A stretch of 64,000 bases of DNA from Dictyoglomus sp. (GTDB lineage: Bacteria; Dictyoglomota; Dictyoglomia; Dictyoglomales; Dictyoglomaceae): the NCBI GenBank assembly GCA_025060475.1, contig JANXBZ010000002.1, positions 1 to 64,000 on the forward strand, read 5' to 3'. Shown one piece after another: positions 24,224 through 32,835 of this stretch. How positions within the stretch are numbered: position 1 is the stretch's first letter; each line of letters begins with the position of its first letter. The position numbers and the translations under genes were made by a program. Below the pieces are notes generated by a model that was not told the origin of the DNA, ran no database searches, and saw only the letters and a list, made by a program, of their open reading frames with translations.

Positions 24224-25015
24224 TTATTTTCTCTTAAAAACCGATATTAAAAACAAAAGGGTAAGAATTAAAATTATTGATGCACCACTAGGAAGGTTAA
24301 AATAAAAAGATAAGGTAAGACCAGAAATAATTCCTATAAAGCTTACTATTGAAGAAAAAATTATCATTTCCTTAAGACTTTTGGACCAAGGAAGAACAAT
24401 AGAAGAGGGAATAACCAATAATGCAGAAATTAAAGTAATTCCAATTAATTTACTTGCTAAAACAATGGAAACAGCGGACAAACTTAATATGACCTCTTCT
24501 AGAATAAAAGTATTTATTCCTGAAACCTGTGCAGAGGTAGAATCAAAGATGATATAAACAATTTTCCAGTAATTTCTGAAAATAAAGAGAATTAAAATTA
24601 AAAGGAAAAACAAGGTAATTAGAATATCTTCGGTAGTTATTGCAAGGATATTGCCAAAAAGATAGCTAAATAAGTCCACAGAATATCCTTTATGCATATA
24701 AAGAAAAATAGCTCCCAATGCCATAGAGGAGGTATAAAATATCCCTATGGGAACATCTTCCTTTAATTTTATTTTTCTTTTTATATAAGGCATAACCCAC
24801 ACAATAATTAATGCAAAAATCAAAGCCAAAATAAGAGGATTTACTCCTAGAAGTATTCCTAAGGCTATTCCTCCAAAAGATGCATGACTAATTCCCGAAC
24901 CCATAAAGGTCATTCCTTTAAGAACTAAGTAAGAGCCTATAATGGAAGTAATTATAGAAAGAAGGAAACCTGAAATTATGGCTCTTTGCATAAAGGAATA
25001 AGAAAGAAAATTCAT
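24224..25015 (-). CDS. znuB: zinc/manganese ABC transporter permease
   Basis: A 263-residue ABC-3 family permease with about eight hydrophobic segments, including GSGISHASFGGIALG near 37 and SKLIGITLISALLVIPS near 190, both typical of ZnuB/MntB. It imports a divalent metal, most likely zinc, with ZnuC and ZnuA. It overlaps znuC by 4 bp and is the last gene of the three. Confidence 0.93.
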   Translation of the reverse strand: MNFLSYSFMQRAIISGFLLSIITSIIGSYLVLKGMTFMGSGISHASFGGIALGILLGVNPLILALIFALIIVWVMPYIKRKIKLKEDVPIGIFYTSSMALGAIFLYMHKGYSVDLFSYLFGNILAITTEDILITLFFLLILILFIFRNYWKIVYIIFDSTSAQVSGINTFILEEVILSLSAVSIVLASKLIGITLISALLVIPSSIVLPWSKSLKEMIIFSSIVSFIGIISGLTLSFYFNLPSGASIILILTLLFLISVFKRK

Positions 25016-25764
25016 TGTTTTTCTTCTCCTTCGTGGGTTAACAATAGAAATTCTTCCCCATATATCTCCTTTAAGGTCTTATGCAATCTCAAATCCTTGG
25101 GACATCCATGTAAGAAAATTCTTCTATTCAAACAGGCTAACTTATTAACTCTCTTTGTTATTACTCCTATATCATGGGATACTAAAATTATTGTTAATCC
25201 CTTTTTATTTAGATATTGCAAAAGACTGTAGAATTTTTCTTGAGTAGTAATATCCACTCCAATGGTAGGCTCATCCAATACAAGAAGTTTTGGTTCCTGT
25301 ACTAAAGCTTTTGCTACTAATACTCTTTGTTGTTGTCCCCCTGATAGCTCTCTAAATAATTTATCCTTATAATCCCACATCTCTACATGATTAAGAGCCC
25401 TCTCAACAATCTCTTCATCTTCTTTACTAATATTTCTCCAATTGTTTACAACCTTTCTTCCAAGTAATACTAAGTCCCAAACTCTTATTGGAAAATAACT
25501 CTCAATCTCTGCTCTTTGTGCAATATATCCTATCTTTTTCCTTTCTTCTCCTAACTTCCATGGTGCTTTTCCAAAAACTTCAACTTTTCCTTTTTTTGGT
25601 CTTAAAAGTCCTAAAATTATTTTAATTAGTGTGGTTTTTCCAGCACCATTGGGACCTATTATCCCCCAGAAATCTCCCTCTTCAACAATGAAATCTATAT
25701 CTTTCAAAATGAAAGTATTGTCATAGCCAAAGGATAAATTTTCTATTTCAATTATTTTGTTCAC
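25012..25764 (-). CDS. znuC: zinc/manganese ABC transporter ATPase
   Basis: A 250-residue ATPase with Walker A GPNGAGKTT, signature LSGGQQQR and Walker B LLVLDEPT, and an H-loop in LVSHD. It powers metal import through ZnuB. It overlaps znuA by 17 bp and znuB by 4 bp, the usual tight arrangement. Confidence 0.95.
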   Translation of the reverse strand: MNKIIEIENLSFGYDNTFILKDIDFIVEEGDFWGIIGPNGAGKTTLIKIILGLLRPKKGKVEVFGKAPWKLGEERKKIGYIAQRAEIESYFPIRVWDLVLLGRKVVNNWRNISKEDEEIVERALNHVEMWDYKDKLFRELSGGQQQRVLVAKALVQEPKLLVLDEPTIGVDITTQEKFYSLLQYLNKKGLTIILVSHDIGVITKRVNKLACLNRRIFLHGCPKDLRLHKTLKEIYGEEFLLLTHEGEEKQ

Positions 25765-26575
25765 TAAAAATCATCTCCAATATTTTTATGTTTTCTCTCA
25801 TCATTGAAAAATAATCTTTGTCATAACCTAATGGGTCTAAGGTTATCAATTTTGCTCCTGTTTCTTTGGAAATCATATTTAAAACAGGAGATATATTATA
25901 AGGTTCTTTTAGAATATATTTAATCTTTTTTTCTTTAATTAAATTAATTATTTCTGCAACTTTTCTTGGAGAAGGTTCTTTTCCTTCTCCTTCTTCGATT
26001 ATTCCTAAGGTTTTTATATTATATCTCTTAAAAAAGTAATACCAAGCGGGATGGTAAATAATTACTTCTTTTTTCTTATATTTTGAAAACTTTATTTTTA
26101 TTTCTCTATCTAATTCCTCTAATTTCTTTATTAGATCTTTAAAATTTTTATAGTAATATTCTTTATTTTTGATATCCATGCTTTTTAGTTTTTCATAGAT
26201 ATTTTCTGAGACCTTTTTTGCAAGGATGGGATCGAGCCATATATGAGGATTATTATCTTCAAATTTTATGTTGTAAGATACATTAAGAAGTTTTTTTCTT
26301 TTATCCTTAAGAATATTTTCCACCCAGTAATCTATATCCCCTCCATTTATAATAACCAATTCCGCTTTTTCGACTAATTTAAAAGTCTCAGGTTTTGGCT
26401 CAAAAACATGGGGATTAACATTTTTTGGAAGTATCAATAAAAATTCCCAATATTTTCCTCCTATAAAACTGGATAAGCTTTGTAAAGGAGGAATAGATAC
26501 TAAAGCCTTTCTTATTTCCCCTTCACTTTCTATAAAAAAGATTAATAGAATAATTAAAATAATAACTTTCTTCAT
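25748..26575 (-). CDS. znuA: zinc/manganese ABC transporter binding protein
   Basis: A 275-residue metal-binding protein of the ZnuA/TroA family. I start at the ATG at 26575, which gives a proper signal peptide (MKKVII, then a hydrophobic run); the longest frame would add 19 residues. Metal ligands are visible as His in NPHVFEP, His in HIWLDP, His in IIYHPAWYYFF, and Asp near the end (ITLDPLGYD). The His-rich loop of many zinc-specific members is absent, so manganese cannot be excluded. The -10 element lies only 9 bp from the ATG. Confidence 0.92.
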   Translation of the reverse strand: MKKVIILIILLIFFIESEGEIRKALVSIPPLQSLSSFIGGKYWEFLLILPKNVNPHVFEPKPETFKLVEKAELVIINGGDIDYWVENILKDKRKKLLNVSYNIKFEDNNPHIWLDPILAKKVSENIYEKLKSMDIKNKEYYYKNFKDLIKKLEELDREIKIKFSKYKKKEVIIYHPAWYYFFKRYNIKTLGIIEEGEGKEPSPRKVAEIINLIKEKKIKYILKEPYNISPVLNMISKETGAKLITLDPLGYDKDYFSMMRENIKILEMIFSEQNN

Positions 26576-26584
26576 AACAAAAAT

Positions 26585-26590
26585 ATTATA
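26585..26590 (-). promoter_or_regulatory. candidate -10 of znu operon, possibly leaderless
   Basis: A perfect minus-strand TATAAT ends 9 bp before the znuA ATG, leaving room for a 5' leader of only about 2-3 bases. No Shine-Dalgarno sequence is visible. The -35 (TTACAT at 17 bp) is weak. Confidence 0.4.
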
Positions 26591-26675
26591 GTCAATTTCA
26601 ACCAATAATGTAAAATAAATTTTTAAAGACAAGTAGAGTTAAAATATTATAAACTGTGAAAAAGAGGAATAAAAA

Positions 26676-30167: not shown

Positions 30168-31088
30168 ATGAGATTTAATGACTGGTTTTTAAAAAAAATA
30201 TATTCTCAGAAAGAGATTGGAAGAAAAGAAATAGGATATTTAGAGGGTTGGATTAGTATAATTGGGAATATTATTCTCTTTATTTTTAAATTTATTTCTG
30301 GAATTTATTTAAATAGTATTTCTTTAACTGCAGATGCCTTTCATTCTTTGTCCGATGTTCTTACTTCAATAGTTGTAATATTGGGATTTAAGTTCGGAGA
30401 AAAACCTGCGGACAAAAAGCATCCCTTTGGACATGGAAGAATTGAGCAGATTGCAACCCTTATTATAGCCTTTATGCTTCTTATTATCGCTTATGACCTT
30501 GGAAAAAGTTCCTTTGAAAGGATAATAAAACCGCAGAAAGTTTCTTTTAATATTTTTATTGTATTTTTAATGTTCTTTTCCGCCTTATTTAAGGAATGGA
30601 TGGCGAGATTTTCAATTTTTTTAGGTAACAAAATTAATTCCTCAACTCTTATTGCTGATGCATGGCATCATAGAAGTGATGCTTTTGCTTCAGCTTTGGT
30701 TGCCTTTGGCCTTTTAGCTATAAATTACGGTTTATATATTATAGATGGAATCATGGGTTTTTTTGTTTCCCTGCTTCTCTTATGGGTTGGTATTGATCTT
30801 ATAAAAAACTCTTCAAGTTTTCTAATAGGAGAAGCACCAACTCAAGAGTTTATTAATAAAATTAAGAATATTGTTTTCTCAATTCCAGGAGTATTAGATT
30901 ATCATGATATTTCAATTCATGATTATCAGAACAAAAAGGTAATAACTTTACATATAGTTGTAGATAACAATATCTCAGCAAAGGATGCCCATGATATAGC
31001 TTTGAAGGTTCAAGATTCAATAAAAGAAAATATTCAAGGCTCACAGGTTATTGTTCATATAGATCCCAAAGGAGAGAGGGAGGATTAA
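30168..31088 (+). CDS. cation diffusion facilitator (metal efflux) transporter
   Basis: Exports divalent metal ions such as zinc, iron or manganese in exchange for protons. The 306-residue protein has about six membrane segments, with metal-site motifs TADAFHSLSD and ADAWHHRSDAFASALVAFG (HxxxD pairs), and a cytoplasmic C-terminal domain from about 215. Metal preference is not certain. No ribosome site is obvious before the ATG. A terminator stem overlaps its stop codon. Confidence 0.93.
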   Translation: MRFNDWFLKKIYSQKEIGRKEIGYLEGWISIIGNIILFIFKFISGIYLNSISLTADAFHSLSDVLTSIVVILGFKFGEKPADKKHPFGHGRIEQIATLIIAFMLLIIAYDLGKSSFERIIKPQKVSFNIFIVFLMFFSALFKEWMARFSIFLGNKINSSTLIADAWHHRSDAFASALVAFGLLAINYGLYIIDGIMGFFVSLLLLWVGIDLIKNSSSFLIGEAPTQEFINKIKNIVFSIPGVLDYHDISIHDYQNKKVITLHIVVDNNISAKDAHDIALKVQDSIKENIQGSQVIVHIDPKGERED

Positions 31089-31102
31089 TTCCTCCCTTTA
31101 TT
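31078..31102 (+). terminator. terminator overlapping the end of the efflux gene
   Basis: GGGAGGA and TCCTCCC form a 7-bp stem with a short loop that contains the stop codon, followed by TTTATTTAT. The 3' end of the coding sequence doubles as the terminator stem. Confidence 0.6.
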
Positions 31103-31292
31103 TATAAAGAGAAACAAATCTTCTGATTGATCTATCATATGTTTTTTCTATATCAGAAGGAAAATAACATGCAGGAAGTTCTCCATGGCTTCTATGATAG
31201 GCTAAACATTCACAGCATAGGCCTTTTCTTGAACAAGGCTCATAGGTGCAATTACAGTTTTTTAAATTTTTTTGAATTTTACACTCTGTCAT
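31098..31292 (-). CDS. small Cys-rich protein (DUF6485-like)
   Basis: A 64-residue protein with eight cysteines (4, 13, 15, 20, 26, 27, 29, 42) and a conserved-looking core [20 protein letters not shown] followed by YHR and ELPAC. I recognise this as the small uncharacterised DUF6485-type family; it probably binds an Fe-S cluster or zinc. A strong GGAGGG site precedes the ATG. It is divergent from a radical SAM/SPASM gene across 64 bp, which suggests a shared control region or partnership, not proven. Confidence 0.8.
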
Positions 31293-31356
31293 TTCTACCC
31301 TCCTTAAATTCCAAAGTTTTTAATAATATAACATAGAAAAATAGAAACAGTAAAAT

Positions 31357-32346
31357 ATGGAAAAAGAATTTGCTTTTCAATGGCATATAACTAATTCTTG
31401 TAACTTAAGATGTAAACATTGCTATCAAGAAGAATTTGATAGGGAAAAAGATCTTTCTCCAAATTTATTAGAAAAGATTATAAGAGATATAATTGGTGTT
31501 TTAAAAGAAAATAATTATTCATCCTTAAGTATAAATATCACAGGCGGAGAGCCCTTAATCTCTCCTCTTCTTTTTCCAGTTCTTAATATCCTTGAAAAAG
31601 AAGATTTTGTGAAGGATTTTAGTATTATAACCAATGGTGAATATCTTGGAAAAATGCAGGATAAATTAGCTTTGTATAGGAAATTAAAATATTTAAAAAT
31701 TTCTCTTGAGGGAGCAAAGGAAGAGAGCAATGATTATATTAGAGGTAGAGGAAATTTTAATAGGGTCGTAGAAATTTTAAAGGAATGTAAATTGAAAAAG
31801 GTTCTTATGTTTACTCTTGCAAAATATAACTATAAAGAAATTTATGAAATGATAAAACTTACAAATAAAATAGGAGGAATAGGTTTAATTCTTGAAAGAT
31901 TCATCCCTTTAGGAAAAGGAAGAGAAATTATAAAAGAGACCCTAGGAATGAAAGAATGGTTTGAAGTATGTAGTTTTATTTCAGAAATTTATGGTCTTTC
32001 TCCTTATAGCCTTTTACCATATAAGGCTTTTTATATAAACATAAAAGATAACGAAATTTATGGGGCATTATGTAATTTAGGAGATGAATCCATGTGTCTT
32101 ATGCCTGATGGAATTGTTTTTCCTTGTAGGAGACTTCCCATAGAAATAGGAGATTTAAGGAAAGAAAGTTTTTCAAATGTTCTTTTAAGATTAAGAAAGT
32201 TTAGAAACCTTTTGAATAAAAAGAATTTAGAAGGAATATGTTCCTCTTGTAATATAAAAAATTGTATAGGTTGTAGAGCTTTGAGTTATGCTTTATCAAA
32301 GAATCTTTTTAAAGAAGATATTCAATGCTTTTATTTAAAACTATAA
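31357..32346 (+). CDS. radical SAM protein with SPASM-like C-terminus
   Basis: A 329-residue radical SAM enzyme with the CX3CX2C motif at C15, C19 and C22 (CNLRCKHC) and ITGGEP near 66. The C-terminal segment has further cysteines (CLMPDGIVFPC, then CSSCNIKNCIGC and a final Cys), as in SPASM domains that bind auxiliary clusters and often modify peptides or proteins. The substrate is unknown. No clear ribosome site precedes the ATG. It overlaps the convergent exonuclease gene by 6 bp; its divergent neighbour is an eight-cysteine small protein. Confidence 0.88.
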   Translation: MEKEFAFQWHITNSCNLRCKHCYQEEFDREKDLSPNLLEKIIRDIIGVLKENNYSSLSINITGGEPLISPLLFPVLNILEKEDFVKDFSIITNGEYLGKMQDKLALYRKLKYLKISLEGAKEESNDYIRGRGNFNRVVEILKECKLKKVLMFTLAKYNYKEIYEMIKLTNKIGGIGLILERFIPLGKGREIIKETLGMKEWFEVCSFISEIYGLSPYSLLPYKAFYINIKDNEIYGALCNLGDESMCLMPDGIVFPCRRLPIEIGDLRKESFSNVLLRLRKFRNLLNKKNLEGICSSCNIKNCIGCRALSYALSKNLFKEDIQCFYLKL

Positions 32347-32835
32347 CTCTTCTAATTTCTCTTTTAACTTTTTTAAGTTTATCACATCCTCTTTGTTATA
32401 TTCTAATAAAAGATGAAGAGCATAGGGATCATTATGATGAATATACCTATACCAAAGCTCTACAGCTATCCTTCCATCTATATCTTTTAATTTTCTTTCA
32501 ATTCCAAGCCTTCTTTCTACAGCCTTAAGACCTCCATAGAGTCCCCTTCTCCAACAAATATACATAAGGTCTATATGAGAAAAATAACTTTTCAGATCAA
32601 GATTAAGTTTTGATCTTATAAAGGGAAGGTCAAATCTTGAGCCATTATAGGTGTAAATTATACCAACATTTTTTAAAACATATAAAAGATTGTAAATAGT
32701 AATTTCTTTATCTACAAGTTGAATTAAATTTTCTTCGTCTCCTCTTTCTATAAAAATACCAATAACAGTAATATGAGAAAATTCTGGAAAAAGCCCAGTA
32801 GTCTCTATATCTAAATATGCTCTAAATTTTTCCAT
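32341..32835 (-). CDS. RNase H-fold DEDD exonuclease (YprB-like)
   Basis: A 164-residue 3'-5' exonuclease domain protein. DEDDy motifs are visible: Asp and Glu in YLDIETTG, Asp in YNGSRFDLPFI, Asp in SHIDLMYICW, and YNKEDV near the end. It is like the nuclease domain of YprB/predicted ribonuclease H-like proteins, acting on DNA or RNA. It lies 12 bp after the Gfo/Idh/MocA gene, so it may be in that operon by position only. Confidence 0.82.
   Translation of the reverse strand: MEKFRAYLDIETTGLFPEFSHITVIGIFIERGDEENLIQLVDKEITIYNLLYVLKNVGIIYTYNGSRFDLPFIRSKLNLDLKSYFSHIDLMYICWRRGLYGGLKAVERRLGIERKLKDIDGRIAVELWYRYIHHNDPYALHLLLEYNKEDVINLKKLKEKLEEL

Follow-up and report, generated by a model that had tools for sequence, protein, structure and literature searches.

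A divergent gene pair in a Dictyoglomus contig

The window analysed here, a 64,000-nucleotide stretch of a Dictyoglomus sp. contig, contains a gene for a small cysteine-rich protein and a gene for a radical SAM/SPASM enzyme that point away from each other (Table 1). The original prediction had described a 64-residue protein with eight cysteines and a radical SAM/SPASM enzyme diverging from a 64-bp gap, and we confirmed the open reading frames, their coordinates and the gap. Both are real genes, with Pfam domains scoring over the cut-off and orthologues that are kept across Dictyoglomota. Promoter-like matches in the intergenic region were weak and occurred on both strands (14, as compared with 9.6, sd 3.2, in shuffled sequences). 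On the other side of the small gene, a cation diffusion facilitator (CDF) gene converges on it, with a terminator-like inverted repeat between the two. About 4 kb from this CDF efflux gene lies a gene set that, from translations read by eye, resembles a metal-uptake ABC transporter (permease, ATPase and binding protein).

Table 1. Coordinates of features in the window and in the loci of homologues
Feature	Sequence	Position	Strand	Evidence or remark
Set resembling metal-uptake ABC transporter	Window	24224-26632	-	Translations read by eye
CDF transporter	Window	30168-31088	+	PF01545 150.9 bits, PF16916 75.1 bits; convergent with DUF6485 gene
Terminator-like inverted repeat	Window	31076-31097	both	Between convergent CDF and DUF6485 genes
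DUF6485 small Cys-rich protein, 64 aa	Window	31098-31292	-	PF20095 36.4 bits (gathering cut-off 24); core motif in 140/140 homologues
Intergenic region between divergent DUF6485 and enzyme genes	Window	31293-31356		Exactly 64 bp
Radical SAM/SPASM enzyme, 329 aa	Window	31357-32346	+	Radical_SAM PF04055 67.6 bits (cut-off 29.5), SPASM PF13186 31.4 bits (cut-off 21.5)
RNase_H_2 protein	Window	32341-32835	-	PF13482 142.7 bits; overlaps 3' end of enzyme gene
Enzyme relative	L217	3036-4357		Directly before PqqD-like gene
Enzyme relative	L219	425-1722		Directly before PqqD-like gene
Enzyme relative	L220	6971-8274		Directly before PqqD-like gene
Small Cys protein downstream of DUF6485	L153	8283-8804		Zixibacteria
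Small Cys protein downstream of DUF6485	L165	8269-8796		Zixibacteria
Small Cys protein downstream of DUF6485	L176	4907-5443		Zixibacteria

DUF6485: cysteine/histidine core and distribution

The small protein falls into an existing Pfam family, DUF6485 (PF20095), a membership that could not be seen from the sequence alone. It matches the family over nearly its full length, and nothing notable sets it apart: the window copy is a typical member that merely adjoins a radical SAM gene. Its eight cysteines are at positions 4, 13, 15, 20, 26, 27, 29 and 42. All 140 DUF6485 sequences, including the window copy (L013), matched the pattern C-x-C-[TS]-x(2,5)-C-x5-C-x2-C-x3-H-x8-C-x-F-x4-E-x4-R, which we derived in the present analysis and did not take from Pfam; its Cys/His core, which is followed by F, E and R, was common to all loci examined. 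Cys27 was absent from just two of the 140 proteins (L089 and L100), and these were also the only two without Cys4, a joint loss which hints that both residues share one site. The protein is conserved along most of its length and has no leader/core layout, as had been predicted, and because all 140 sequences fit the Cys/His core there is no variable segment that could serve as a core peptide.

The cysteines and the histidine (a core of C13, C15, C20, C26, C29, H33 and C42 together with the pair C4/C27) are most likely metal ligands, and would form one or two sites for zinc or an iron-sulfur cluster. Beyond them lies a conserved C-terminal stretch that includes E49 and R54. No NCBIfam model matched the small protein at E values up to 0.01, and a PDB sequence search with the single protein returned nothing at E values up to 1. 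When the DUF6485 profile was used instead, there was a single chance-level match, to ribosomal eL37 (E 0.21). The CxC motifs suggested a likeness to ferredoxin:thioredoxin reductase, and such reductases are presumably among the PDB chains; the profile search returned none of them and this likeness was dropped. An AlphaFold2 model made with 65 sequences was of low confidence (mean pLDDT 66, pTM 0.46), and Foldseek found no match for this low-confidence model in the PDB at E values up to 10; the model was given no weight as evidence. A text search of the open-access literature found no paper naming DUF6485 or PF20095. In L062 DUF6485 seemed to be fused into a larger protein (a 411-aa frame), but this was rejected, judging the translation by eye, as a spurious upstream frame in GC-rich DNA.

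We surveyed 193 genomes, seven from Dictyoglomota and 186 from outside this phylum. DUF6485 was present in 62 of them, in a single copy in all but one (61/62), and named records show the family in numerous bacterial phyla as well as in some archaea. Outside Dictyoglomota, COX1 was found in 5/56 carriers of DUF6485 versus 77/130 non-carriers (Fisher p = 3e-11); for a strong PFOR match the counts were 53/56 versus 72/130 (p = 2e-8, at a hand-set threshold). Both tests assume independent genomes, an assumption that does not fully hold, although most of the genomes come from different families. PFOR_II was unspecific at E 0.001, where it matched 182/193 genomes and also aerobe controls, and a best-E cut of ~1e-18 was therefore chosen manually once the table had been seen; the COX1 result is independent of this cut. 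DUF6485 is strongly tied to anaerobe-like genomes and is rare where a COX1-type oxidase is present. The main interest of the locus is DUF6485 itself, with an invariant Cys/His core in ~64 residues and nearly always one copy per genome, and the identity of its metal would inform anaerobic cell biology.

The radical SAM/SPASM enzyme and its linkage to DUF6485

The CX3CX2C motif of the enzyme is CNLRCKHC (residues 15-22). Seven C-terminal cysteines (239, 257, 295, 298, 303, 306 and 324) are invariant in all six aligned Dictyoglomota sequences and are putative auxiliary cluster ligands of the SPASM domain, a domain that typically binds two such clusters according to PMC9012708. Among the 25 matches listed of 73, none of the named NCBIfam equivalogs reached its cut-off. 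The best model was SbtM (TIGR04082; 118 bits, cut-off 350); the enzyme scored 109 bits with the ACGX-system rSAM model (TIGR04340, cut-off 400) and 107 bits with AhbD heme b synthase (TIGR04545, cut-off 500). With radical SAM/SPASM enzymes (PF04055 plus PF13186) it shares the CX3CX2C motif, a SPASM domain over the cut-off and the seven C-terminal cysteines, but its scores with these three models lie between one fifth and one third of the respective cut-offs and we therefore filed it under none of them. The enzyme is an orphan in a huge enzyme superfamily and an unassigned member of its SPASM group, and no paper combining radical SAM, SPASM and Dictyoglomus came out of the open-access text search. 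The CX3CX2C cluster would be the place where the enzyme cleaves SAM, and the auxiliary clusters would be in use while it oxidises or crosslinks its substrate.

Three relatives of the enzyme (L217, L219 and L220) lie directly before PqqD-like genes, in what are possible RiPP-type systems. These neighbours suggest peptide substrates in the organisms concerned, and the arrangement is like that of PqqE-type SPASM RiPP maturases with PqqD/RRE. The pair in the window differs from such systems in two respects, as a search of the window genome for PqqD (PF05402) gave no match and DUF6485 does not have a leader and a core.

All seven Dictyoglomota genomes in the survey carry the enzyme and six carry DUF6485. 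The seventh (G001) has an enzyme fragment starting at base 20 of a contig, and because the fragment begins at the contig edge its neighbour is not visible. The divergent pair was found in all six genomes where it could be seen, and the aligned starts were 40-64 bp apart. These genomes represent two genera, and co-occurrence of the pair beyond one genus, which the original prediction had set as its test, was thus observed. Identity to the window sequences was 81-91% for the small protein and 52-75% for the enzyme; the small protein is far more conserved than the enzyme, a contrast that does not point to a co-evolving enzyme/substrate pair.

The neighbours of the pair could be followed in four wider Dictyoglomota loci (L222-L225). 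The RNase_H_2 gene adjoins the enzyme gene in the window and in L222, L223 and L225 and is absent from L224. Neither L222 nor L223 has the two genes that lie past RNase_H_2 in the window; on the enzyme side, L225 has the same gene order as the window. The window also has a lactate/malate dehydrogenase gene beside the CDF gene; no such gene was seen in the sequence available for L222-L225, where L224 and L225 extend for less than 0.9 kb on that side. One reading of the adjacency is that it is pure inherited gene order, with neither function nor shared regulation, which would fit a linkage seen only in Dictyoglomota and the fact that CDF is retained too, as RNase_H_2 is in most loci. We regard this as distinctly unlikely, since the block of CDF, DUF6485 and enzyme genes is intact in all four wider loci while the outer genes were rearranged. 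That the pair was kept through two genera despite this rearrangement favours some functional or regulatory link, and the two genes may be co-regulated in Dictyoglomota.

Outside Dictyoglomota we analysed 132 loci. They comprise 54 loci that sample a range of bacterial families (a 55th was left out because no ORF matched) and a named set of 78. The named set consists of the top 80 among 537 confirmed relatives, ranked by likeness to the Dictyoglomota protein, minus two from Dictyoglomota. A search with the enzyme profile found a clear member of the enzyme family near DUF6485 in none of the 132: the top match had 86.8 bits and lay at 4.6 kb, as compared with 591-623 bits for the Dictyoglomota pairs. 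In 96 of these loci each flank spanned 2 kb or more, and in 11 one flank was shorter than 500 bp, so that a few linked pairs could be hidden.

At the level of whole genomes, strong orthologues of the enzyme (283-473 bits) were present in 6/186 genomes outside Dictyoglomota and weaker ones (185-218 bits) in four more, these tiers having been set after the scores were seen. Five of the six genomes with a strong orthologue also carry DUF6485 (p = 0.01), but the signal was gone once the four weaker ones were added (5/10, p = 0.17). None of these ten genomes has both genes linked: in G147 they are ~512 kb apart, and in the other co-carriers they are on different contigs. The closest outside lineage (G052, G193 and G194) has both genes in 3/3 genomes, likewise on different contigs; in G052 the enzyme gene adjoins purine synthesis genes, identified by eye. 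Conversely, 51 of the 56 outside genomes that carry DUF6485 have no clear orthologue of the enzyme. A dedicated system of enzyme and small protein was not supported by these numbers, and the neighbourhood check that the original prediction had proposed gave no enzyme-family match above 87 bits in the 132 outside loci.

Could the enzyme nevertheless modify the small protein in Dictyoglomota, by a thioether, a carbon-carbon crosslink or similar, having recruited it as a substrate while most DUF6485 proteins are unmodified? Apart from DUF6485, no conserved small gene was found next to the enzyme in this phylum, the linkage was kept across two genera, and the PqqD-type recognition proteins next to enzyme relatives indicate that the enzyme family includes likely peptide maturases. 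We nonetheless consider such a modification very improbable, because the Dictyoglomota DUF6485 proteins keep the same motif as those in genomes without the enzyme. The closest outside lineage, moreover, keeps both genes unlinked, the window genome has no PqqD match and the protein has no variable core region. The narrower proposal of a RiPP precursor was rejected on the missing variable core, the missing PqqD match and the lack of linkage to the enzyme outside Dictyoglomota. The pair is most likely not one of enzyme and substrate.

We think it probable that DUF6485 is a stand-alone metal-binding protein of anaerobes and that the orphan enzyme is separate from it, the two being joined by a conserved divergent promoter and not by a dedicated enzyme-substrate relationship. 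There would then be two separately working genes with one shared divergent promoter region that was kept in Dictyoglomota, and DUF6485, probably a cytosolic protein, would work without the enzyme in most organisms. Among the loci analysed, this pairing of a known Pfam family with an orphan enzyme is limited to one lineage, the small phylum Dictyoglomota.

Other neighbours of DUF6485

In the diverse sample DUF6485 had no constant partner, as no Pfam family accounted for more than 3 of the 97 genes immediately beside it. Among the best 80 of the 537 relatives, a different radical SAM family lies close to DUF6485 on the same strand in 14 loci, from Aminicenantes, Omnitrophota, Zixibacteria and one unclassified bacterium. 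The two members that were scanned have a Radical_SAM domain only and no SPASM domain. The family occurs in two different gene orders, downstream of DUF6485 (L118, L121, L122, L124, L125 and L149) or upstream of it (L131, L132 and L141), and in further loci it is one gene away (L138, L153, L161, L165 and L176). Three of the Aminicenantes loci (L122, L124 and L125) also have a NifU_N-type gene just upstream, checked against Pfam in one. Counting any radical SAM motif, we found 14/252 among genes adjacent to DUF6485 versus 8/719 among genes at least four genes away (p = 2e-4, a value that ignores kinship, the excess coming mostly from few lineages). This excess is the main result pointing to a wider link between DUF6485 and radical SAM enzymes, and it does so weakly; the diverse sample showed no excess beside DUF6485 (2/104 adjacent versus 7/255 at least four genes away).

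The original prediction had offered a cluster donor or electron partner as its alternative. In one reading of this kind, DUF6485 would be an Fe-S/thiol redox carrier in anaerobes, supplying a variety of radical SAM enzymes with electrons or clusters, and the Dictyoglomota enzyme would be a co-regulated client. Eight cysteines and one histidine offer possible ligands for this role, the distribution is linked to anaerobes, and both the other radical SAM family and the NifU_N-type genes are consistent with it. SPASM enzymes can also need electron transfer between molecules, as PMC10470005 describes for PapB, a SPASM-type enzyme for which intermolecular electron transfer was shown to matter. We consider a carrier of this kind unlikely, however, given the diverse sample, and given that the radical SAM load per Mb did not differ between anaerobe-like carriers and non-carriers (13.4 vs 12.9, p = 0.58, from counts of loose first-look candidates). 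The raw count was slightly higher in carriers (31.5 vs 26, p = 0.02), a difference that we put down to genome size as an assumption of the analysis. The motif could equally bind zinc, and the PDB searches gave no solved relative. The more general proposal, that DUF6485 is an anaerobe-wide small Fe-S/thiol electron or cluster partner to which each lineage links its own radical SAM client, is in our judgement quite improbable; if it were true, the clients would be the SPASM enzyme in Dictyoglomota and the different radical SAM family in Aminicenantes, Omnitrophota and Zixibacteria.

Some further neighbours recur within lineages. The RNase_H_2 gene, which is one gene further out in Dictyoglomota, adjoins DUF6485 in six of the named loci (L128, L143, L145, L146, L151 and L158), where it is divergent from DUF6485 and an RNase PH gene lies just downstream. 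Neighbours of the RNase PH, QueH and dCMP-deaminase-like (by eye) types were found mostly in Chloroflexota-type records. We considered these genes, together with RNase_H_2, as constant partners of DUF6485 and read them instead as lineage gene order. In three Zixibacteria loci, a further small cysteine-containing protein is conserved just downstream of DUF6485 (Table 1).
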